Positions 9,247 to 16,465 of a DNA stretch of 47,606 nt are shown piece by piece (positions within the stretch are counted from its first letter, which is position 1; every line of letters starts with the position of its first letter). The notes under the pieces are model-generated. The model did not search any database and was not told where the DNA came from. It saw only the letters and a list, made by a program, of their open reading frames with translations. The DNA comes from Candidatus Buchananbacteria bacterium CG10_big_fil_rev_8_21_14_0_10_42_9. Its GTDB lineage: Bacteria > Patescibacteriota > Patescibacteriia > Buchananbacterales > 21-14-0-10-42-9. Made by a program: the position numbers and the translations under genes. The stretch is from NCBI GenBank assembly GCA_002773845.1, contig PEZZ01000007.1, positions 17,007 to 64,612 of the forward strand, written 5' to 3'.

Positions 9247-9627
9247 ATGGCTGATAAACCGCTTAAAGTATTGTTGGTGGAGGATGATGATACTTTAATT
9301 GATATGTACAAGATGCGCTTTGACGCCGAAGGTTTTGATTTAACGGTGGTTAAAGACGGCACTACCGGCATAGACACTGCGCTTCAAGGTGGCTGGGATG
9401 TAATTTTGCTTGATGTGATGCTGCCAAAAGTTGATGGTTTCATGATCTTAGAAGAGGTTAAAAAGAACGCTAACACTAAAAATGCCAAAGTTATTTTGCT
9501 AACTAATCTAGGCCAAGAGTCTGACAAGAAAAAAGGCGAAGAGATGGGCGCCTCAGGATATTTAGTTAAGGCGAATTTCACGCCGAGCCAAGTGGTTGAC
9601 AAAATTAAAGAAATCATTAAAATATAG
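9247..9627 (+). CDS. Stand-alone response-regulator receiver protein
   Basis: A single CheY-like receiver domain of 126 residues without an output domain. Acidic residues at VEDDD (about 10-13), the phospho-acceptor Asp in VILLDVMLP (about 53), a Thr/Ser-type switch in ILLTN (about 84) and the conserved Lys in LVKAN (about 106) are all present, so it should be phosphorylatable. No histidine kinase is nearby. Single-domain receivers act by protein-protein contact in chemotaxis, pilus or phosphorelay systems; the partner here is unknown. The start is placed by the promoter spacing. Confidence 0.88.
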   Translation: MADKPLKVLLVEDDDTLIDMYKMRFDAEGFDLTVVKDGTTGIDTALQGGWDVILLDVMLPKVDGFMILEEVKKNANTKNAKVILLTNLGQESDKKKGEEMGASGYLVKANFTPSQVVDKIKEIIKI

Positions 9628-9634
9628 GGTCAAT

Positions 9635-10084
9635 ATGGAACAATCATTAATTATTTTCAAACCAGATGCTCTCCAGCGTAATTTAGTTGGAGAGATTATT
9701 CGCCGTTTTGAACAAAAGGGTCTAAAAATTATTGGGCTTAAAATGTTGTCTTTGGATGATACTGTTTTGGACGAGCATTATGCCCATCATAAAGATAAGC
9801 CGTTTTTTGCCGATTTGAAAAATTTTATGAAATCTTATCCAGTGATTGTAATGGCTTTGCAAGGGCCTGACATTGTTGATGCGATTCGTTTAATTGTCGG
9901 ATCAACTAACGCCAAAGAAGCTGATGCCGGAACTATTCGCGGCGATTTTGGCATGAGCAATTTAAATTTAGTTCACGCTTCTGATTCAGCTAAAACCGGT
10001 AAAGCCGAAATTAAGCGATTTTTTAAATCAGACGAACTATTTGAATACGATAAAATCACGGATGTAATGATTTACGAAGAGTAA
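9635..10084 (+). CDS. ndk: Nucleoside diphosphate kinase
   Basis: Equilibrates nucleoside di- and triphosphates using a phospho-histidine intermediate. 149 residues, usual length. It begins MEQSLIIFKPDALQRNLVGEII, the canonical N-terminal nucleotide-binding segment. It contains RLIVGSTNAKEADAGTIRGDFG and the active-site motif NLVHASDS with the catalytic His. It starts seven bases after the receiver gene stop and is probably in the same transcript. A hairpin with a U-run at 10137-10163 may be its terminator. Confidence 0.97.
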   Translation: MEQSLIIFKPDALQRNLVGEIIRRFEQKGLKIIGLKMLSLDDTVLDEHYAHHKDKPFFADLKNFMKSYPVIVMALQGPDIVDAIRLIVGSTNAKEADAGTIRGDFGMSNLNLVHASDSAKTGKAEIKRFFKSDELFEYDKITDVMIYEE

Positions 10085-10107
10085 ATTTATCTGTGAATTA
10101 AATACCC

Positions 10108-10135
10108 TTGACAAGTTTTAAGCAAGAGCTAGACT
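10108..10135 (+). promoter_or_regulatory. Island unit 1 promoter
   Basis: TTGACA (10108-10113), 16 bp, TAGACT (10130-10135). An ATG follows 16 bases later at 10152. It starts the accessory island directly after ndk. Confidence 0.5.
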
Positions 10136-10136
10136 G

Positions 10137-10163
10137 ACGGCAGTTCCTTACATGCCGTTTTTT
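10137..10163 (+). terminator. Hairpin plus U-run after ndk / at the unit 1 5' end
   Basis: ACGGCA (10137-10142) pairs with TGCCGT (10153-10158), followed by six T. It lies just after the unit 1 -10, so it could terminate ndk transcripts, or very early unit 1 transcripts. Confidence 0.55.
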
Positions 10164-10179
10164 AAACCCAAACTTGTTT

Positions 10180-10250
10180 GGAGAACTCTTATTGTGAGTA
10201 CAAGGCAACTTGTAAATACCAAAGAGCTCTCCAGAAATGGGGAGTTTTTT
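10180..10250 (+). promoter_or_regulatory. Unit 1 candidate attenuator
   Basis: GGAGAACTCTT (10180-10190) can pair with AAGAGCTCTCC (10222-10232) with one mismatch, enclosing a small hairpin ACAAG-GCAA-CTTGT (10200-10213) with a GNRA-type loop. The competing hairpin CTCTCC/GGGGAG (10227-10244) is followed by six T. The two structures are mutually exclusive, the logic of a transcription attenuator. Unlike the other units no closed leader peptide is evident. Confidence 0.5.
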
Positions 10251-10304
10251 GGTAGCCGAATTTCTGGTTGCCAACAAGCGCATTACAGCAGAAGGGGAAT
10301 TGTA

Positions 10305-10493
10305 GTGGGCGAGTGCACCGGTTCTCATGACGATGAAAACCAAGTGGCCGCGGACCAGGCTCTGCCTAAGGCTGTAATAGCCACGTCGGATGCTTACCGG
10401 CAGTGGCTTATTCAGCAAGAGGCCTTGCATGGGCCCTCATCCAAGTGGCCACAAAGCAGTTGCCGAAGATTGATTCTCAAGCCCGGCGATTGA
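10305..10493 (+). CDS. Small hypothetical protein, unit 1
   Basis: Unrecognised 62-residue protein starting at GTG with AAGGGGAA about eight bases upstream. It contains VAADQALPKAVIATSDAYR and a basic, Cys-containing C-terminus ending LILKPGD. The same frame stays open upstream to an ATG at 10152, so a 113-residue product that includes the leader region is possible. The upstream residues overlap the attenuator hairpins and look non-coding, so I prefer the GTG. Codon use is GC-rich compared with neighbouring core genes. No function is proposed. Confidence 0.45.
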   Translation: MGECTGSHDDENQVAADQALPKAVIATSDAYRQWLIQQEALHGPSSKWPQSSCRRLILKPGD

Positions 10494-10526
10494 CGAGACA
10501 GGAGGTAAGATTCTCGTTGCCAGGCC

Positions 10527-10557
10527 GAACACAAGACAGTTGTATGCGCTTGTGTTC
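10527..10557 (+). terminator. Hairpin downstream of the unit 1 gene
   Basis: GAACACAAG (10527-10535) pairs with CTTGTGTTC (10549-10557), a perfect nine base-pair stem. It is followed by a short T-rich stretch (ATTTTGA), so termination may be inefficient. Confidence 0.5.
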
Positions 10558-10574
10558 ACATTTTGATGCCTTGA

Positions 10575-10605
10575 CCCCGTTAGAAGTTTTCAACTTCTAA
10601 CGGGG
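10575..10605. repeat. 14-bp palindrome abutting the unit 2 -35
   Basis: CCCCGTTAGAAGTT (10575-10588) and AACTTCTAACGGGG (10592-10605) are perfectly complementary around a three-base loop. The right arm ends exactly one base before TTGACA. Related CCCCGTTAGAA-type arms occur at 17487, 21493-21557, 29836-29855 and 37332-37432. It may be a terminator-like insulator, an operator, or a dispersed palindrome. Confidence 0.7.
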
Positions 10606-10634
10606 TTGACAGGCAATAGTTATTAAGTTAACCC
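10606..10634 (+). promoter_or_regulatory. Island unit 2 promoter
   Basis: TTGACA (10606-10611), 17 bp, TAACCC (10629-10634). The leader ATG at 10644 follows after nine bases, the same geometry as in units 3, 4 and 6. The -10 is the weakest of the group. Confidence 0.55.
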
Positions 10635-10643
10635 GAAATAAAT

Positions 10644-10730
10644 ATGATGGAGTTAAACCTTTCAGTCATTATTACCACTATTAAGACCAAGACTACGCAC
10701 CTTGTGGGTGGAAGGTTAATTGTTGCATAG
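10644..10730 (+). CDS. Unit 2 leader peptide (Thr/Ile-rich)
   Basis: A 28-codon ORF whose ATG lies nine bases after the -10. Its middle reads SVIITTIKTKTTH: five Thr and three Ile codons within twelve positions, ending about nine bases before the anti-terminator strand at 10706. The stop TAG is inside the conserved CATAGATAA. The arrangement resembles the thr operon leader peptide, where stalling on Thr/Ile codons prevents termination. That it is translated is inference. Confidence 0.5.
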   Translation: MMELNLSVIITTIKTKTTHLVGGRLIVA

Positions 10731-10796
10731 ATAATACAAGTTAGACAATCGCAAGCAGCCTTCTACCCAGAAGGCTTTTTTGATTGTCTTGCTTGC
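10706..10796 (+). promoter_or_regulatory. Unit 2 transcription attenuator
   Basis: GGGTGGAAGG (10706-10715) can pair with CCTTCTACCC (10759-10768), one G-U pair. This would disrupt the terminator AGCCTTC / GAAGGCT (10757-10776) that is followed by six T. Flanking arms AGACAATC / GATTGTCT (10743-10750, 10782-10789) and GCAAGCA / TGCTTGC (10751-10757, 10790-10796) interleave. From CATAGATAA to the end the sequence is almost identical to unit 3 (11549-11636). Confidence 0.72.
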
Positions 10797-10886
10797 CTGG
10801 ATACGCCTTACGCGGATTCCATGCGGACAAGACAGCACATTGACTAAACATCGGACTCAATTTCCCGCCTTGCGGGGGAGAAAGAA

Positions 10887-11303
10887 ATGCCGACGAGGAG
10901 ATTAATTTTTGTTCCGGCTGAGTGTCATGTCTCGGCCAATGGCGATGGTGCATTCCATGCCAGCATCACTATGGCTGAGAAGTTTGACTTAAGTCGCCTA
11001 CGGAGCGGCAGCGCAATTTCCGAATGCATTCAGTGTGCGGTCGGCGATGCTGTGTCTGAAGCCATGGGATTACCGTGCTCGACAGCACTAAAGCTGGATG
11101 ACGCGGGAAATCTGTGGCAACACGTGTCGGTTGACGGTGGCTACTCAAGCAGCCGCCGTCTAGCGGACAAAGGCGAAGCGTTGGCTGATAGAATTTGGCC
11201 CATGCTTGAATCCGCTGAGCCGGTGCTTGTCCAGGCGATGGCGTCTGAAATGGCTCGTGTTTTCACGGACTACAATAGAGTGTACGTCGACTATGCAGTA
11301 TAG
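10887..11303 (+). CDS. Hypothetical protein, unit 2
   Basis: Unrecognised protein of 138 residues. It starts at ATG preceded by GGGGGAG, itself sitting on a CCCGC-CTT-GCGGG hairpin (10864-10876). The N-terminus looks like strands (RRLIFVPAECHVSANGDGAFHASITM), then a helix (AISECIQCAVGDAVSEAMG), a glycine-rich turn and a long C-terminal helix (SAEPVLVQAMASEMARVF). There is no signal peptide or membrane segment. Strand-helix order and spacing resemble the unit 6 protein. The coding sequence is clearly GC-richer than core genes. Function unknown. Confidence 0.72.
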   Translation: MPTRRLIFVPAECHVSANGDGAFHASITMAEKFDLSRLRSGSAISECIQCAVGDAVSEAMGLPCSTALKLDDAGNLWQHVSVDGGYSSSRRLADKGEALADRIWPMLESAEPVLVQAMASEMARVFTDYNRVYVDYAV

Positions 11304-11348
11304 GTCGGCAGCTCATATTGGGAAAATGCCATCGAGGGATCCGCCACA

Positions 11349-11387
11349 GGGGTTCGAGAAATCAAGAAAGGAGATATCTCGAACCCC
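11349..11387 (+). terminator. Hairpin after the unit 2 gene
   Basis: GGGGTTCGAGA (11349-11359) and TCTCGAACCCC (11377-11387) form a perfect 11 base-pair stem. There is no U-run, so it may be an mRNA 3' stabiliser rather than an intrinsic terminator. Confidence 0.5.
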
Positions 11388-11410
11388 TCGAACCCATCTA
11401 GTAGTTGGAT

Positions 11411-11452
11411 CCCGGATCGGAGTCCGGGACGACACATTTCTTGATGTGTCGT
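11411..11452. repeat. Tandem hairpins immediately before the unit 3 promoter
   Basis: CCCGGA/TCCGGG (11411-11428) is followed by ACGACACAT/ATGTGTCGT (11429-11452), whose last base touches TTGACA. The same two-hairpin module, with compensating base changes, precedes the unit 6 promoter at 14357-14396. Confidence 0.65.
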
Positions 11453-11481
11453 TTGACATTATTTTTTACTTCCTATATACT
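11453..11481 (+). promoter_or_regulatory. Island unit 3 promoter
   Basis: TTGACA (11453-11458), 17 bp, TATACT (11476-11481), close to perfect consensus. The leader ATG follows ten bases later. Confidence 0.8.
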
Positions 11482-11491
11482 GCAAAACAAC

Positions 11492-11548
11492 ATGAATATT
11501 GCCAAACTTTCCCAAATTATTAACATTATCATTATTGACCAGCCTTAA
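11492..11548 (+). CDS. Unit 3 leader peptide (Ile-rich)
   Basis: Encodes MNIAKLSQIINIIIIDQP, 18 residues with seven Ile codons, six of them in a seven-residue stretch. The stop TAA is directly followed by the anti-terminator strand GGGTGGAAGG. The ATG is ten bases after the -10, so the mRNA would be essentially leaderless. This is the expected layout of an isoleucine-sensing attenuator; translation and stalling are inferred. Confidence 0.6.
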   Translation: MNIAKLSQIINIIIIDQP

Positions 11549-11636
11549 GGGTGGAAGGTTTAGCGCATAGATAAAAACAAGTTAGACAATCGCAAGCAGC
11601 CTTCCCCCGGAAGGCTTTTTTGATTGTCTTACTTGC
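11549..11636 (+). promoter_or_regulatory. Unit 3 transcription attenuator
   Basis: Strand GGGTGGAAGG (11549-11558) competes with the terminator AGCCTTCC / GGAAGGCT (11598-11616) followed by six T. Outer arms AGACAATC / GATTGTCT (11584-11591, 11622-11629) and GCAAG / CTTGC interleave as in unit 2. The near-identity with unit 2 extends over about 70 bases, while the peptides and genes on either side differ. Confidence 0.75.
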
Positions 11637-11727
11637 TTATACCAGTGGTATTAGCGAGCAAGGCATTTGGTCTTCATAAGTTATCCTGTTCGACTCAACC
11701 CTAAACACCCCGAGAGGAGGTTTAATT

Positions 11728-12159
11728 TTGAGCGCAAACAACTGGTATTATTACCCCACTGGAACCATTCTGGTTCCAAGAAACCCTGAAGGCGGAGGCC
11801 ATGAATCTATCCACGGAGAGTACGGTGAATGGTTCATGGTCAGGGGATATCAAGGCAGCGAAGGTGATGACCTCGTGGTGTTGGTGTCTCTGAGTGAAAG
11901 GACGGGCGCTTGGAAGCGGCTCTTCCCCGGCCATTACGGGACACCTGATGTTGGCTTGCATCCACACAGGCCGACAATCATGAGGTTCATGAGGCCAGCC
12001 ACTCCTGAAGAGATACTTCCCCAGCAGATGGCGGAGCTCTACCGTGATGAGCTCGACGTGCTGTACCACTGGGGTAACCGCGAGCAGTGGCCTGACCACC
12101 TGCGCAAGCGGTTCCGCCGGCGTCGGAGTATTCCGAAGCGAGAACTCAACGGGCAGTAA
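11728..12159 (+). CDS. Hypothetical protein, unit 3 first gene
   Basis: Unrecognised protein of 143 residues, starting at TTG eight bases after a strong GAGAGGAGG. It has an aromatic N-terminus (NNWYYYPTGTILVP), a Gly-rich segment, a hydrophobic strand (DDLVVLVSLSE), HPHRP near residue 75 and a strongly basic tail (KRFRRRRSIPKRE). No signal peptide or membrane helix. GC-rich codon use. The basic tail could bind nucleic acid, but that is speculation. First gene of a likely four-gene transcript. Confidence 0.7.
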   Translation: MSANNWYYYPTGTILVPRNPEGGGHESIHGEYGEWFMVRGYQGSEGDDLVVLVSLSERTGAWKRLFPGHYGTPDVGLHPHRPTIMRFMRPATPEEILPQQMAELYRDELDVLYHWGNREQWPDHLRKRFRRRRSIPKRELNGQ

Positions 12160-12175
12160 AGCCCAGGAGGAGGAC

Positions 12176-12247
12176 ATGACAAGAGGACCGCCCAAGAGGG
12201 CTGGACGCGAATGGAAAGCGTCCGGCCCTCACACACCCTGCTTCTGA
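12176..12247 (+). CDS. Very small ORF, unit 3 second gene
   Basis: A 23-codon ORF (starts MTRGPPKRAGREWK, ends PHTPCF). It is preceded by an exceptionally strong AGGAGGAGG placed right after a GGGC...GCCC hairpin (12151-12164). The hairpin plus Shine-Dalgarno arrangement matches the longer island genes, which is the reason for listing it. It is basic and has one Cys. It could be a microprotein or a translational leader for the next gene. Confidence 0.45.
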   Translation: MTRGPPKRAGREWKASGPHTPCF

Positions 12248-12344
12248 ATGCTGATAATTATTTGTCATTATCCAGAAGCCGAGTGCTTCCTAGCGATGTA
12301 GTTTCGCTAGTAAGTCCCGCGTAGCGCGGGGGAGGATTTACATA

Positions 12345-12704
12345 ATGCCTACCGGGACCAAACGGAAACGGTTTGAATTGTTCTATCTGTCGCCTGAGAA
12401 ACGTGGTGGCAGTTGGCAGGTTTGCGTTGGCGTCCGTGACTGTGTCGATCGCCGAGAACATCGCGGCAAAGGCGCAGACGATCTTCAGCACCTTGCTATC
12501 GAACGGGCGTTCGCTAAGGCACTGGGCGATAAGCTCTCTTTCAGCATCAAGTGGGAGCTGGATCTGGATAACGAGCAGCGCGCAACTGGCGGCTGGTTGC
12601 GGAATGGCAAAGCAAGAGTAAAGCTTGGGAGTTTGCACTCTCATAGCTCGGCGGATTTCGCCAACGCTATTGTAGCAGCCTTGAATACAGTCACCTCGCA
12701 CTAA
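12345..12704 (+). CDS. Hypothetical protein, unit 3 third gene
   Basis: Unrecognised 119-residue protein. The ATG follows GGAGG by nine bases, and the GGAGG sits on a perfect CCCGCG-TAG-CGCGGG hairpin (12316-12330). A strand-like N-terminus (KRFELFYLSP, GSWQVCVGVRD) leads to a helix (DDLQHLAIERAFAKALGD). Two strands (SFSIKWELDLDN, KARVKLGSLH) and a last helix (DFANAIVAALNTV) follow, suggesting a small alpha/beta fold. GC-rich. A longer antisense frame overlaps it but has no ribosome site or promoter. Function unknown. Confidence 0.65.
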   Translation: MPTGTKRKRFELFYLSPEKRGGSWQVCVGVRDCVDRREHRGKGADDLQHLAIERAFAKALGDKLSFSIKWELDLDNEQRATGGWLRNGKARVKLGSLHSHSSADFANAIVAALNTVTSH

Positions 12705-12732
12705 GACCTGACCCAGTTGAGGAGAACAAGAC

Positions 12733-13017
12733 ATGTACACACAAGGAACCGCGTTGTGCTCTCCGGGAGCAAATGCGGAAAGCGGAAACTTCCTAGTAGT
12801 ACTGGAGGTAGCCAAAAAAGGGGATCGCCCCATCTGTATGGTAAGTCCAGCTCTGGCAAGCATGGTCCAGCGGCCTTATGTCGGACCGGTGGATACCACA
12901 ATTCTTGACGCGCTCGTGCCCGTCGCGCTTGAGAGCGCGGCGTTCCAGAGTGTCGTGTCGGAGTTGACCGGTGAGGATCGCCGGCAAGTGCGTCGGCTCC
13001 GGCCGCGTAGTCGGTGA
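12733..13017 (+). CDS. Hypothetical protein, unit 3 fourth gene
   Basis: Unrecognised 94-residue protein starting at ATG eight bases after GAGGAG. It has a hydrophobic strand (NFLVVLEVAKKG), a helical middle (TILDALVPVALESAAFQSVVSEL) and an Arg-rich C-terminus (RRQVRRLRPRSR). It lies 28 bases after the previous gene and before the terminator at 13039, so it is probably the last gene of unit 3. GC-rich like the rest of the island. Confidence 0.6.
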   Translation: MYTQGTALCSPGANAESGNFLVVLEVAKKGDRPICMVSPALASMVQRPYVGPVDTTILDALVPVALESAAFQSVVSELTGEDRRQVRRLRPRSR

Positions 13018-13038
13018 CTGCCATAGTTCGAACAAATG

Positions 13039-13078
13039 GCCCGCTGGCACTTCGGTGTCGGCGGGCTGGTGTACTTTT
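13039..13078 (+). terminator. Unit 3 terminator
   Basis: GCCCGC (13039-13044) pairs with GCGGGC (13061-13066), extended inside by GGCAC-TTCG-GTGTC with a stable UUCG-type loop. ACTTTT follows. Confidence 0.7.
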
Positions 13079-13089
13079 CCACACGACAT

Positions 13090-13117
13090 TTGACAAAAAA
13101 TAAGGCTATGCTAATAT
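13090..13117 (+). promoter_or_regulatory. Island unit 4 promoter
   Basis: TTGACA (13090-13095), 16 bp, TAATAT (13112-13117). The leader ATG follows nine bases later. Confidence 0.75.
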
Positions 13118-13126
13118 GTTTTTAAC

Positions 13127-13186
13127 ATGATTTTACACGCAAACAACCTACCATTATTGCCTTTATTGCCAGTCCCAAGCCGGTAG
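13127..13186 (+). CDS. Unit 4 leader peptide (Leu/Pro-rich)
   Basis: Encodes MILHANNLPLLPLLPVPSR. Five Leu and four Pro codons fall in ten consecutive positions (CTA CCA TTA TTG CCT TTA TTG CCA GTC CCA). The stop TAG overlaps the first base of the anti-terminator strand GGGAGTTTG. Its spacing from the -10 is the same as in units 2, 3 and 6. It suggests control by charged tRNA-Pro and/or tRNA-Leu; translation is inferred. Confidence 0.6.
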   Translation: MILHANNLPLLPLLPVPSR

Positions 13187-13253
13187 GGAGTTTGTTTGTA
13201 TCCATAGATAAATAAAAGTTTCAGACAAATTCCCATACCAACTGGGATTTTTT
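13186..13253 (+). promoter_or_regulatory. Unit 4 transcription attenuator
   Basis: GGGAGTTTGTTTG (13186-13198) can pair over 13 positions (two G-U) with CAGACAAATTCCC (13222-13234). This prevents the short terminator stem TCCCA/TGGGA (13231-13247), which is followed by six T. The CATAGATAAATAAAAG spacer resembles units 2 and 3. Confidence 0.68.
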
Positions 13254-13278
13254 GATTATAAGCACATTAAATTTATAT

Positions 13279-13352
13279 GTTCGTGTAGCTCAGCAACGTA
13301 GAGCACCTCGCATGGGGCGAGGGGGTCGCAGGTGCAATACCTGTCACGGACC
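13279..13352 (+). tRNA. tRNA-Pro(UGG)-like sequence with altered loops
   Basis: A full cloverleaf can be drawn. The acceptor GTTCGTG/CACGGAC has seven pairs including one G-U. Then come TA at positions 8-9, the D-stem GCTC/GAGC, the anticodon stem CCTCG/CGAGG with loop CATGGGG (anticodon TGG), variable GGGTC, and the T-stem GCAGG/CCTGT. However, the D-loop (AGCAACGTA) lacks G18-G19, the T-loop (TGCAATA) has G at position 55, and position 33 is A instead of U. No CCA is encoded. It follows the Leu/Pro leader attenuator. It may be a specialised tRNA, a decoy or a decayed tRNA; normal decoding is doubtful. Confidence 0.6.
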
Positions 13353-13541
13353 GGGCTTTGCCCGAACTATTCGGCGGTTTCGCCAAATAAGTGCCCACAC
13401 GGGGTGGGAAGACTTATGCGGTGATCCGCCGGCCGGCGCACATCGCGTCAATATCTTCGGAAAGTTGCCCGCAACCCGGGCGGCAATCCACGTGGCGGCA
13501 GGTGTTTACCAACCCTGCCGCCACGATTCCCTAAAAATATT
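13353..13541 (+). other. GC-rich structured stretch after the tRNA-like sequence
   Basis: Contains successive small hairpins (CGGGC-TTT-GCCCG, GGCG-GTTT-CGCC, CCCAC...GTGGG) and ends with a perfect 11 base-pair stem GTGGCGGCAGG/CCTGCCGCCAC (13492-13524). Open frames run through it but have no ribosome site, and the last hairpin lacks a U-run. It is more like an RNA, or a processed tail of the tRNA-like transcript, than a protein gene. Function unknown. Confidence 0.4.
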
Positions 13542-13643
13542 ATGCTAAGACTTTTACTAAAATCTAATGTACTTTCAAAAGCATTGTTATTGCTTGGTTT
13601 GTTATTGTTGGCACCGCCGGGTGGCAAGTTGATACGTGTTTAA
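13542..13643 (+). CDS. Unit 5 leader peptide, Leu-rich frame (alternative Cys-rich frame)
   Basis: The frame starting at 13542 encodes a 33-residue peptide with LLLLGLLLLAPP and 15 Leu in total. A second, overlapping frame from the ATG at 13567 to the TGA at 13632 encodes 21 residues including HCYCLVCYCWH. The second frame stops right beside the anti-terminator strand, as in units 3 and 6, but the first has the more usual attenuator residue run. No consensus promoter is visible, so the unit may be read from unit 4. Which frame is translated is undecided. Confidence 0.4.
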   Translation: MLRLLLKSNVLSKALLLLGLLLLAPPGGKLIRV

Positions 13644-13696
13644 CCAAGTCTTTGATAAACATATATGAGCCTACCACCCCTGTCGGGTGGTTTTTT
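13619..13696 (+). promoter_or_regulatory. Unit 5 transcription attenuator
   Basis: GGGTGG (13619-13624) inside the leader frame competes with GGGTGG (13685-13690) for CCACCC (13674-13679). The second pairing makes a terminator followed by six T. Confidence 0.6.
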
Positions 13697-13796
13697 CATA
13701 AAGGTTCATGCGGACCGTCTCCGCGGGAATCAGGCTCATGCCCTTGTACAATCTCAAAAAATGAAAAAACGAGCAAGCGCTCGGGAGGAAAGGGCC

Positions 13797-14240
13797 ATGG
13801 AACTTGCTGATTTCCAGATGGAGTACTACAAGCACTTACGGCCCGGCCCAATCGGCACTCCGCCAGGGGGATGGGAGATGTCACTGACCATTGGTGATAT
13901 TACCATTTCCAGTAAAGGGGGGCATTGGTACCTCGCCGCTGCCGAGTTGCTTACGCAGCTCGGCTTTCCAAGGGAGTACCTCGACGAGCTCGAGGTCGAG
14001 CACTTGGTCACTTCCCAAGAGACTGCGGAGAAGTTCGTCGGCAACTGCCTGGCACCCTTACGGATTGCCTTAAGTCGGCCGCGGCGGTCTAATCGCCACC
14101 AAATTCGCGTGGCTGGCTACCTGAATGGCCGGCATCGTAAGGAGGGGGCGAAGGCAGGGACGAAACTCGCTGCCTTGCAGGGGGCTATTGCCCGCCTGTT
14201 CGGTGGACGACCCATTCTGCGGACTGAAGGCGCGGCATAA
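13797..14240 (+). CDS. Hypothetical protein, unit 5
   Basis: Unrecognised protein of 147 residues. It starts at ATG nine bases after GGAGG, which directly follows a CGAGC-AAGC-GCTCG hairpin (13770-13783). An in-frame ATG at 13761 would lie upstream of that hairpin and is less likely. Composition: acidic N-terminal helix, strand pair (WEMSLTIGDITIS), helix (WYLAAAELLTQLG), acidic middle, then a basic C-terminal half (SRPRRSNRHQIRVAGYLNGRHRKEG) and a final helix. No signal peptide. GC-rich. Function unknown. Confidence 0.7.
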   Translation: MELADFQMEYYKHLRPGPIGTPPGGWEMSLTIGDITISSKGGHWYLAAAELLTQLGFPREYLDELEVEHLVTSQETAEKFVGNCLAPLRIALSRPRRSNRHQIRVAGYLNGRHRKEGAKAGTKLAALQGAIARLFGGRPILRTEGAA

Positions 14241-14299
14241 GGGAGGTCTCAAGTTTAAGGCGAAAGTACCTCACCAGGTATTAATCGCCGCGAGTTTTC

Positions 14300-14339
14300 A
14301 AAAGGGCCGAGATCGCACACCCACGATCCGGCCCTTTTC
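14300..14339 (+). terminator. Unit 5 terminator
   Basis: AAAAGGGCCG (14300-14309) pairs with CGGCCCTTTT (14329-14338). The stem continues inside as GATCG/CGATC, and the hairpin ends in a T-run, so it can act in both directions. Confidence 0.8.
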
Positions 14340-14356
14340 TAATTATTTTAACTGGT

Positions 14357-14396
14357 TCCCGGGTCAGAGCCCGGGACGGCGCATTCCTTTTGCGCC
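14357..14396. repeat. Tandem hairpins before the unit 6 promoter
   Basis: TCCCGGG/CCCGGGA (14357-14376) and GGCGCA/TGCGCC (14378-14396). The second ends two bases before TTGACA. The module aligns with 11411-11452 with paired changes in both stems. Confidence 0.65.
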
Positions 14397-14398
14397 AA

Positions 14399-14427
14399 TT
14401 GACAAGATTTTAAGCATTTGATAATCT
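14399..14427 (+). promoter_or_regulatory. Island unit 6 promoter
   Basis: TTGACA (14399-14404), 17 bp, TAATCT (14422-14427). The leader ATG follows ten bases later. Confidence 0.78.
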
Positions 14428-14437
14428 TTTTATTACT

Positions 14438-14509
14438 ATGAATAACATATCAAATCAGCGAATTTTTTGGGGCTATTTTTTCTTTTTTTCCCACGCCGGG
14501 CGGGACTGA
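14438..14509 (+). CDS. Unit 6 leader peptide (Phe/aromatic-rich)
   Basis: A 23-codon ORF containing RIFWGYFFFFSH: seven aromatic residues in nine positions, five of them Phe. It then has AGRD and a stop directly beside the anti-terminator strand. It is strikingly like the pheA/pheST leader peptides of enterobacteria in composition, though not homologous by sequence. A phenylalanine-sensing attenuator is the natural reading; translation is inferred. Confidence 0.62.
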   Translation: MNNISNQRIFWGYFFFFSHAGRD

Positions 14510-14564
14510 TTTAGTTATTTAAGATAATTTAAAATTAGCAGATCCCGCACCCGCGGGATTTTTT
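14497..14564 (+). promoter_or_regulatory. Unit 6 transcription attenuator
   Basis: GCGGGAC within the leader end (about 14500-14506) competes with GCGGGAT (14553-14559) for ATCCCGC (14542-14548). The latter hairpin is followed by six T. Outer arms AGATAAT / ATTATCT flank it. Confidence 0.68.
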
Positions 14565-14715
14565 GATTATCTAAAAGGGTTAATTCTGGTACAGATAAAT
14601 GGCAGTCTGAACCAGAACCGACCCCTGTAGTGGTCAAACCGGCCCATTTGGGATCGGGCAGAGATATGCCATAACGAACATTGACTTGGCGGGAGCCAAA
14701 GGAGACCTATAAGCC

Positions 14716-15150
14716 ATGCCAGGTACTAACGGACTCATAAGGCCAATATCCTGTGGGAGGGGTTCGCACGTGATTACCGTCTACACGAACGGTGCACGAT
14801 GCAATATCAACCTTCCCTGGGGGGGCTTTGGCGACATGACGGAGGTTGGCCGCACGGTGATGGAGGAAGATATCAACAGCTTCCTGGAAGAAGTGGCCGA
14901 GGCTGCGCTGCCCGGGCATAAAGTCACCGAGAGGTGCCGTACCGTTTCTCACCTTGCGGACGGATCGTTTTCCGTCAGCGTGTCCCTTGAAGTGGAAGGG
15001 GTAATTGACCCAATTAAGGCCACGGAGATCGGTGAGTGTGTGTACCTCCTGCTCACCGAATGCTACTCCGTTGCCTTACGCGAGGCTAGCGCTCGTCTCA
15101 TCGCGAGAGCTGAGGGTAGCTCACCGGTATTCGCGAGGCTTTTCCACTAA
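14716..15150 (+). CDS. Hypothetical protein, unit 6
   Basis: Unrecognised protein of 144 residues. AGGAG lies 11 bases before the ATG and directly after a TTGGC-GGGA-GCCAA hairpin (14686-14699). Predicted order: strands (SHVITVYTNGARCNINLP), helix (MEEDINSFLEEVAEAALPG), strand pair (DGSFSVSVSLEVEG), and a long helix (ATEIGECVYLLLTECYSVALREASARLIARA). The second half shows the same spacing of Gly, Ala and Leu as the unit 2 protein, so they may be distant paralogues. GC-rich, no membrane segment. Function unknown. Confidence 0.72.
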   Translation: MPGTNGLIRPISCGRGSHVITVYTNGARCNINLPWGGFGDMTEVGRTVMEEDINSFLEEVAEAALPGHKVTERCRTVSHLADGSFSVSVSLEVEGVIDPIKATEIGECVYLLLTECYSVALREASARLIARAEGSSPVFARLFH

Positions 15151-15214
15151 CCCTCCGTCAGTCAGTACGTCGCCTAAGCGGTACACCACCCGCGAGGCAA
15201 CGTCAGAACGTATT

Positions 15215-15250
15215 GGAACCACATCTCACCGATGTGGTTCCTCTCTTTTT
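15215..15250 (+). terminator. Unit 6 terminator, end of island
   Basis: GGAACCACAT (15215-15224) pairs with ATGTGGTTCC, followed by TCTCTTTTTT. A strong intrinsic terminator between the island and the convergent antiporter gene. Confidence 0.88.
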
Positions 15251-15262
15251 TGCTAAAGCTAA

Positions 15263-16465
15263 TTAAATAATTTCCGCCTGATTCCTATTACGGTTGTGGC
15301 AGTTAATGCAATATTTTAATAAAGGCGGGGTAATTAAAGTCGTTAAGATTACCATCAACATCGCGGCGCTAAAAATATTTTGGGTAATAATTTTTAATTG
15401 AAAGCCTAAAGTGGCAAAAATAATTCCAACCTCGCCGCGCGGTATCATGCCCACGCCAACTATCCAGCTTTTTACTACGGCGCCTGCCACAATTTTACCC
15501 AATACAGCAATGACAGTTAACGAAAGGCCCAAAGCAATAACCTTAAAGTTCAAAAAGATAACTGGATTCACAATTGAGGTGGCATAGACAAAAAAGATGG
15601 GCGCTAATGTGCCTTCTAAAATTAAAACTCGCTGTTCCACTGGTTTTTCATGGTCGTCTTTTCCACTTCTAAAAAAGGCTTCTTCTAAAGCGACTCCGGC
15701 AAAGTAAGCACCGACAATTGGCGCTAAGCCGGCAAATGCCGCGCCGGCGCCATAAGCGGCCATGAAGCCAAAAATAATTTTACTGTTAGCTTGTGGGTCC
15801 AAAGCTCTCAGCTGTTTCATTAAAGGGGCGACAAAAAAGTAGCCTAGCAAAGGGAGTAGCACAATAAAAGCTAGGGCAGTGCCGATTTGAGCTATGATTG
15901 TAAATATGTCTAATTTAATATCGCCAGCAAAAGATTGAGCGACCATAAGGACAATTAGTCCTAAAACATCATCAAGTACCGCGGCGCTGATTATGATTTT
16001 AGCGTAAGTAGCTTGCAGTAGCTTAAATTCAGATAAAACCGCGGTCGTCACCCCGACGCTAGTGGCAACTAAAATACCTCCGGTGAAAAAAGCGGTGGCA
16101 AAATCATAGCCTAAAAGTTGCATTAATAAGTAAGCGCCAACAAGCGGCATGATAACTCCGATCAAGGCCACCCATATACTGGTCTTAGCGTCACGAAGCA
16201 TGGACTTAACATTGCCCTCAAGTCCGGCGCGAAATAGCAACACCATGGCGGCAAATTCAGCTAATTGCGGAATAAAGCCATGCTCATCATGGCGTACCGC
16301 TTGTAGCCATTGAGTCCAATTAAACAAAATACCAATCACAATACCGGCGAGTAACATTCCTAAAACGCGCGGTTGCTTAAATTTAATAGCTATTCGATTG
16401 CCCACGACTGAACCGAGCAGGGCAAAAGCGATGAAGATGAGAGATTGAAAAAAAGCGGTGGCCAT
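15263..16465 (-). CDS. CPA2-type cation:proton antiporter
   Basis: Integral membrane protein of about 400 residues with some 12 hydrophobic segments. It is predicted to exchange Na+ or K+ for protons. The N-terminal helix leads to RVLGMLLAGIVIGILF (about 35-50). The central SAAVLDDVLGLIVLMV (about 160-175) carries the paired acidic residues expected in the ion-binding region of the family. GLAPIVGAYFAGVALEEA (about 250) and MIPRGEVGIIFATLG (about 340) are typical of the KefB/NapA-like branch. There is no C-terminal TrkA-N domain. I prefer the ATG at 16465; an in-frame TTG lies three codons upstream. Confidence 0.88.
   Translation of the reverse strand: MATAFFQSLIFIAFALLGSVVGNRIAIKFKQPRVLGMLLAGIVIGILFNWTQWLQAVRHDEHGFIPQLAEFAAMVLLFRAGLEGNVKSMLRDAKTSIWVALIGVIMPLVGAYLLMQLLGYDFATAFFTGGILVATSVGVTTAVLSEFKLLQATYAKIIISAAVLDDVLGLIVLMVAQSFAGDIKLDIFTIIAQIGTALAFIVLLPLLGYFFVAPLMKQLRALDPQANSKIIFGFMAAYGAGAAFAGLAPIVGAYFAGVALEEAFFRSGKDDHEKPVEQRVLILEGTLAPIFFVYATSIVNPVIFLNFKVIALGLSLTVIAVLGKIVAGAVVKSWIVGVGMIPRGEVGIIFATLGFQLKIITQNIFSAAMLMVILTTLITPPLLKYCINCHNRNRNQAEII

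Follow-up and report, generated by a model that had tools for sequence, protein, structure and literature searches.

The window analysed here is a 47,606-nucleotide stretch of contig PEZZ01000007.1 (positions 17,007 to 64,612, forward strand) from the genome of Candidatus Buchananbacteria bacterium CG10_big_fil_rev_8_21_14_0_10_42_9, designated G000 (1.09 Mb in 50 contigs, 41% GC). It contains five leader-peptide attenuators, at positions 10644, 11492, 13127, 13542, and 14438, each composed of a short open reading frame (ORF) with a biased residue composition, an antiterminator segment, and a U-tailed terminator. Behind them lie, in order, P1 (unit 1), P2-P3-P4 (unit 2), a tRNA-Pro-like RNA (unit 3), P5 (unit 4), and P6 (unit 5), P1 to P6 being six GC-rich orphan proteins of 94 to 147 amino acids (aa); T-run hairpins read from the sequence close the units. 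The locus is very probably an array of ribosome-mediated transcription attenuators. As the biosynthetic enzymes are absent here, its switches would induce the six orphans and the tRNA-Pro-like RNA upon amino acid starvation.

Organization of the leader units

All features described below are on the forward strand. Unit 1 has a −35 box TTGACA (10606..10611) and a poor −10 (GTTAAC/TTAACC), followed by a Thr/Ile-rich leader ORF of 28 aa (10644..10730; MMELNLSVIITTIKTKTTHLVGGRLIVA), an antiterminator segment identified by pairing and folding (TGGGTGGAAGG, 10705..10715), and a terminator hairpin with a U-run (10757..10781). Unit 2 begins with the promoter TTGACA-N17-TATACT (11453..11481) and encodes an Ile-rich leader of 18 aa (11492..11548; MNIAKLSQIINIIIIDQP). 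Its antiterminator segment (GGGTGGAAGG, 11549..11558) starts immediately 3′ of the stop codon, and its terminator lies at 11598..11621. Unit 3 comprises the promoter TTGACA-N16-TAATAT (13090..13117), a Leu/Pro-rich leader of 19 aa (13127..13186; MILHANNLPLLPLLPVPSR), an antiterminator segment recognized by folding (13182..13198), and a terminator (13231..13253). The Leu-rich leader of unit 4 (33 aa, 13542..13643; MLRLLLKSNVLSKALLLLGLLLLAPPGGKLIRV) has no clear promoter of its own; its antiterminator segment (CGGGTGGC, 13618..13625) lies within the leader ORF and its terminator at 13673..13696. Unit 5 consists of a promoter with TTGACA and either GATAAT (N15) or TAATCT (N17) (14399..14427), a Phe/aromatic-rich leader of 23 aa (14438..14509; MNNISNQRIFWGYFFFFSHAGRD), an antiterminator segment overlapping the stop codon (CGGGCGGGACTGA, 14497..14509), and a terminator (14540..14565).

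A promoter is thus found directly 5′ of the leaders at 11492, 13127, and 14438, a weak −10 at 10644, and none at 13542. In the four TTGACA units, the spacing from the −10 places the leader ATG near the predicted 5′ end of the transcript. The initial annotation of this region had described these four units with promoter, residue run, and alternative hairpins, and the elements are present as placed, but the −10 at 10644 is poor. It had also noted a fifth unit at 13542 with a leader and an attenuator and no clear promoter, and this was borne out, although that leader folds to the terminator in both states modeled below. Likewise, what follows the leaders in this genome is indeed a set of small genes of unknown function plus a tRNA-like RNA, as it had proposed.

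The island from 10.1 to 15.25 kb has a GC content of 43 to 58%, compared with 35 to 40% just upstream and about 39 to 46% downstream. GC-rich palindromes resembling each other (CCCGGATCGGAGTCCGGGACG and CCCGGGTCAGAGCCCGGGACG) are located at about 11410-11432 and 14357-14380, immediately 5′ of the unit 2 and unit 5 promoters. A sixth attenuator-like stretch (10109-10493) carries a promoter (TTGACA/TAGACT), a U-run hairpin near 10225-10250 that can pair with the upstream sequence GGAGAACTC, and, 3′ of these, a small GC-rich ORF; it lacks a closed leader ORF bearing a run of residues.

Alternative folding and chance expectation

Two states were folded for each leader: the free leader, beginning 15 codons ahead of its stop codon, and the same leader with the bases under a ribosome on the stop codon removed. 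At 10644, 11492, 13127, and 14438 the free leader forms the antiterminator and the ribosome at the stop codon releases the terminator, while 13542 remained ambiguous. In silico, the switch is therefore present in four of the five leaders, for each of which the initial annotation had suggested RNA folding. Antiterminator duplexes reach about −19 to −21 kcal/mol at 10644, 11492, and 14438, and −12.3 kcal/mol at 13542. At 11492 the last Ile codon lies 12 bases 5′ of the antiterminator segment, and the spacing of stop codon, segment, and last Ile codon suits the classical attenuation model. The attenuator scanner missed the terminator at 13127 owing to its short stem, but the same switch appeared when this leader was folded explicitly.

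The scan returned 9 candidates in the genome (1.08 Mb) and only 2 after the genome had been reversed; three matches within this 4.6 kb are thus far more than chance would give. Three other candidates (C17:40267, C34:1542, and C18:1452) were inspected and not accepted as amino acid leaders, and a promoter-first scan with loose thresholds was dropped as too noisy. Residue runs as strong as those of the leaders occur at frequencies of 0.0001 to 0.0007 among the 8,263 ATG ORFs of 15 to 40 aa in the genome, calculated for each leader's biased residue set, the sets having been picked after the leaders had been seen.

The homologous locus in related genomes

The relatives compared belong to other families than G000. 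The array has a conserved setting: to the extent that each contig shows it, genes for PfkB, SahH, ComEC, a response regulator, and Ndk flank it on one side, and genes for an M50 peptidase, RpsL, RpsG, and FusA on the opposite side. An array occupies the equivalent site in G010, G002, and G005, and the split contigs of G003 and G001, which break at the array, are consistent with the same linkage. The nearest sequences of the window Ndk are from the Parcubacteria group and Ca. Buchananbacteria; it is of the short common type (9596-10084), and G010 and G002 carry a longer variant there (about 37 to 40% identical).

In G003, which is from another family of the same order, locus L102 carries leaders for Ile (285), Val (2247), Leu (about 3510), Pro (5662), and Phe (6160). 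The Ile leader precedes a citramalate/isopropylmalate synthase-like (IPMS/CMS) enzyme, the Val leader two small orphans (o1 and o2), the Leu leader a small Cys-rich protein and an IPMS, and the Phe leader a protein of unknown function and a prephenate dehydrogenase-dehydratase (TyrA-PDT). The leader order is the same in G010, whose Phe unit bears a DAHP synthase; the search of related genomes proposed earlier thus recovered the order Ile, Val, Leu, Pro, Phe twice. In G002, Ile, Val, and Leu leaders occur together with an IPMS-family gene and a tRNA-like sequence; in G001, a DAHP synthase gene follows a Phe leader; and in G005 an Ile leader is followed only by a 131-aa orphan with a Shine-Dalgarno (SD) sequence. 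Counted by leader, Ile is present in G003, G010, G002, and G005, Val and Leu in G003, G010, and G002, Pro in G003 and G010, and Phe in G003, G010, and G001. Pfam searches of the relatives' cargo identified HMGL-like/LeuA_dimer synthases, DAHP synthase, and TyrA-PDT behind leaders, with genes of the cognate metabolism seen in G003 and G010. No convincing array was detected in G004, G007, G009, and G011 in the rpsL-adjacent stretch that their contigs allow. Scanning around 80 Ndk loci of other genomes yielded only 3 noise-like matches, so that an array linked to ndk is known here from this order alone. When the surroundings of IPMS/CMS genes were scanned, similar Ile/Leu leaders were detected before such genes in other families of the class (e.g., MMIIHNHNAIIGIIISQPLGGRPTL and MTSFHRQFIAIISIIISQPLGGRPTL).

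The leader peptides themselves are conserved. The window Leu leader ALLLLGLLLLAPPGGK matches SLLLLGLLLIQPKGGR and GLLLGLLLLSQPVGGR of relatives, the Ile leaders of four relatives end in Ile runs followed by SQPxGGS, and a run of aromatic residues is common to the Phe leaders (WFFSFYFF, FFGFYF, WFFSFYF, FWGYFFFF). At identical focal residues the codons differ synonymously in 21 of 36 aligned pairs for Leu, 19 of 70 for Ile, 9 of 23 for Phe, 5 of 7 for Pro, and 8 of 12 for Val, these being pairwise counts rather than independent events. Loss of the peptide frame or residue runs in relatives had been named in advance as evidence against leader peptides; instead, the runs are conserved through synonymous codon changes. 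The homologues also suggest a refinement of the residue identities. All runs assigned originally are present, but the run at 13127, previously given as Leu/Pro, would be a Pro run, and that at 13542 a Leu run.

These observations bear on a simpler explanation, according to which the hairpins merely terminate the genes upstream of them and the short ORFs arose by chance. It is normal for terminators to stand between units, and short ORFs with an ATG are common, as the 8,263 counted above show. However, the codon-run statistics, the promoters, the alternative pairing, and the conservation of leader peptides at the same locus all argue against this explanation, which we regard as highly improbable. 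The window array is the orthologue of the relatives' array, which would govern cognate biosynthetic enzymes at the same locus. The proposal of a battery of separate sensors driving no biosynthetic enzymes is supported in part: the enzymes are absent from G000, but the array is not a free-standing battery.

Orphan proteins and tRNA-like RNA

No relative of IPMS/CMS, DAHP synthase, PDT, or TyrA was found in G000 (one local search left out 10 kb of contig C49). In place of such enzymes, the units contain P1 (138 aa, GC-rich; 10887..11303), P2 (143 aa, with a TTG start after AGGAGG; 11728..12159), P3 (119 aa; 12345..12704), P4 (94 aa; 12733..13017), P5 (147 aa; 13797..14240), and P6 (144 aa; 14716..15150). 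Each is preceded by an SD-like sequence, and in each its own frame scores best of the six when judged by the codon use of the relatives' array enzymes. Searches of Pfam, PHROGs, and NCBIfam with the window orphans gave nothing significant and no recognizable link to the metabolism of the putatively sensed amino acid. Similarly, no significant homologue was detected for P1 in 35 relatives, for P3 and P6 in 286 genomes of the class, or for P1, P2, P3, P5, and P6 in IMG/VR. Fragments of the relatives' array enzymes were considered as a source of the orphans and rejected, as there is no sequence match.

The third unit contains a tRNA-Pro(UGG)-like RNA (13279..13352; RF00005, 40 bits) in which the cloverleaf is kept and all stems are paired. 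It has A instead of U at position 33, an atypical T-loop (T-arm GGUGCAAUACC), and no encoded CCA, and a normal tRNA-Pro(UGG) of G000 is encoded on contig C43. Degenerate tRNAs are also found behind the Pro leaders of G003 and G010 (30.8 and 29.8 bits), so that a tRNA-like RNA follows the Pro switch in three genomes. A blastn search recovered a sequence closely matching the canonical tRNA-Pro(UGG) elsewhere in G003; the same search recovered none in G010. Within the G003 Pro unit, a tRNA-Pro(UGG)-like sequence with CCA (L102, 5896-6071) has a long insertion in the D-arm region. A tRNA-like sequence of G002 (L134, minus strand), about 141 bases long, lies behind the Val leader and before the Leu leader, and has matching acceptor ends, CCA, and a large internal insertion.

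The unusual cargo could mean that the array is a relic, with leaders left over from enzyme loss and downstream ORFs that are functionless, arising by chance or decaying. The absence of the enzymes from G000, the lack of orphan homologues, the abnormal anticodon loop and T-loop of the tRNA-like RNA, and the several relatives in which the available contig shows no array next to rpsL would all fit such a relic. Decay should, however, erase runs, pairings, and terminators, which are intact in all five switches, and every orphan has an intact frame that follows an SD-like sequence and outscores the other five frames in codon use. Furthermore, G005 is in the same state, with a leader and an SD-preceded orphan, and the G003 proteins o1 and o2 behind the Val leader are conserved in G010 (E about 1e-21 and 1e-5). 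We therefore consider a relic unlikely and favor an array of working attenuators.

Compatible with such attenuators, the small cargo proteins may be stand-alone amino acid-binding domains akin to the regulatory (LeuA_dimer) domain of IPMS/CMS, retained as sensors or regulators after loss of the catalytic part, a suggestion that we make tentatively. One genome of the class, G041, encodes a true stand-alone LeuA_dimer protein (L282:4482-4853; 123 aa, PF08502, E 5e-29); it adjoins an amino acid kinase and an IPMS/CMS-like enzyme. The sole Pfam match of the G005 orphan is an insignificant one to LeuA_dimer (E 0.3). With a profile of 26 LeuA_dimer sequences from the class, P6 ranked at the top of the G000 ORFs (E only 0.025) and the G005 orphan next, and with a smaller profile of the IPMS/CMS regulatory domain, hhalign placed the G005 orphan second and P1 third of 659, ranks that are suggestive only. 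Single-sequence models of P3 (pLDDT 64) and P6 (pLDDT 54) consist of strand-strand-strand-helix repeats, the second repeat of P6 having two strands, and the IPMS regulatory domain has been described as having a beta-beta-beta-alpha architecture (PMC11057210). On the other side, PF08502 did not reach significance: P1 to P6 gave no match at E up to 1, and P1, P3, P5, and P6 none at E up to 10. P6 aligns only in part, and shuffled sequences reach similar hhalign scores. The models of P3 and P6 are of low confidence. When P3 was compared with known folds by Foldseek and VIA-align, and P6 by VIA-align, the scores were only middling (best Z 7.2 and 7.8); no IPMS chains were among the matches listed, although that absence shows nothing. 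P3 had looked by eye like an IPMS regulatory domain, but this is not claimed, as the protein ranked 46th, and 65th to 100th, in profile comparisons. As none of these hints is significant alone, the identity of the cargo as sensor domains is suggested rather than established.

Proposed function of the array

In the proposed mechanism, RNA polymerase would start the transcript at or nearly at the leader ATG, and a ribosome would translate the short leader peptide. With the cognate charged tRNA (Ile or Thr, Ile, Pro, Leu, and Phe, respectively) in plentiful supply, the ribosome would reach the stop codon and cover the antiterminator segment, allowing the U-tailed hairpin to halt transcription. 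With the charged tRNA scarce, the ribosome would stall on the residue run, the segment would pair with the 5′ arm of the terminator, and polymerase would read through into the unit. Such units would deliver the first enzymes of Ile, Leu, or aromatic amino acid synthesis in the relatives, and P1 to P6 and the tRNA-Pro-like RNA in G000.

Several observations weigh against this interpretation. The leader at 13542 lacks a good promoter and forms the terminator whether or not a ribosome is modeled at the stop codon, the −10 at 10644 is poor, the two-state folding hides bases by hand and ignores kinetics, and the reversed-sequence control yielded 2 scan candidates as well. The enzymes might lie in the missing ~4% of the assembly. 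Finally, none of the window orphans has a homologue by which conservation of the cargo could be judged, the search of the large class set having covered P3 and P6.

It is conceivable, though we would not call it probable, that attenuators were rewired in a host-dependent bacterium that had lost amino acid synthesis. The Ile/Thr, Pro, Leu, and Phe switches would then induce stand-alone sensing proteins and a decoy-like tRNA, reporting which amino acid is short rather than producing it; the decoy role of the tRNA-Pro-like RNA is one guess. More generally, the array suggests that leader-peptide attenuation has been conserved as a way of controlling genes in Patescibacteria, in which regulation is poorly known and culture difficult. 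G000 and its relatives form a natural series, from leaders with enzymes through leaders with enzymes and orphans to leaders with orphans only, in which the fate of a sensor after pathway loss can be followed. Because the leaders name the amino acid presumably sensed, they also offer a functional handle on otherwise unclassifiable small genes and tRNA-like RNAs.

Other putative attenuators in the same genome

Two leaders elsewhere in G000 appear from their sequences to be ordinary attenuators. A Thr/Ala-rich leader (MDKLHAITATTTMAATASG) with a terminator on contig C22 (L049, 1644), of the thr type, lies 130 bases 5′ of a homoserine dehydrogenase-like gene, and a leader on contig C27 (L054, 14466; MLIVQNYLQLNPPVVTGSHCLGSFVM, MLIVQNYLQLNPPVV...) with a terminator precedes a gene for a ProB-like kinase, both genes having been named by eye. 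A Val-rich leader on contig C38 (L065, 161; MHKALFNNPVLGYDRGPLAVVKAVIVAVPLRGC) has a strong attenuator, and the GC-rich DNA behind it contains no more than a small ORF. On contig C15 (L042, near 12025, minus strand), a TrpR/YerC-like gene encodes a His-rich tail (LNHHHNQSHS) that overlaps a terminator with alternative pairing upstream of a LOG-like gene, a possible case of His attenuation located in the terminal part of a gene for a regulator.

Comparison with known attenuation systems

The thr, ilv, leu, and phe operon leaders of enterobacteria are ribosome-mediated attenuators. The units described here are like such amino acid operon attenuators in having a run of cognate codons in the leader peptide, a mutually exclusive antiterminator and U-tailed terminator, and one switch per transcription unit. 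The resemblance in layout noted initially is thus supported by the residue runs and, in four of five leaders, by folding. Ribosome-mediated attenuation has been described for trp, ilvB, trpS, and leuS leaders in Actinobacteria (PMC1262725), and a theory of the process is available (PMC1183508). A literature search for attenuation in Patescibacteria/candidate phyla radiation (CPR) found no report, and within the literature covered the mechanism is apparently undescribed in these bacteria.

With covariance models, leader 5 gave a weak match to the Rfam Phe_leader (RF01859; 29.8 bits, below the gathering score of 55). No Rfam match at the gathering score was obtained within the window, and no T-box at E up to 5 in 10000-15300. 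The LeuA_dimer domain (PF08502) is present in the enzymes behind homologous leaders, and a similar order of strands and helices is seen in the low-confidence models of P3 and P6, but no window protein has a significant Pfam match to it. The window RNA shares the cloverleaf and the TGG anticodon with tRNA-Pro(UGG) and differs from it in A33, the T-loop, and the lack of an encoded CCA.

The window nevertheless departs from classical attenuators in several respects. The leader ATG is almost at the predicted transcript start, leaving no room for an SD sequence, and several amino acid switches lie side by side. In addition, the cargo in G000 consists of orphan proteins and a tRNA-like RNA rather than cognate enzymes, and the host is a Patescibacterium with a small genome. 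The kind of switch is known, and ordinary attenuators occur in the same genome, but the cargo and its retention are unusual. Overall, what is new is an array for multiple amino acids, with near-leaderless leader ORFs, whose switches persist with orphan and tRNA-like cargo after the loss of the enzymes.

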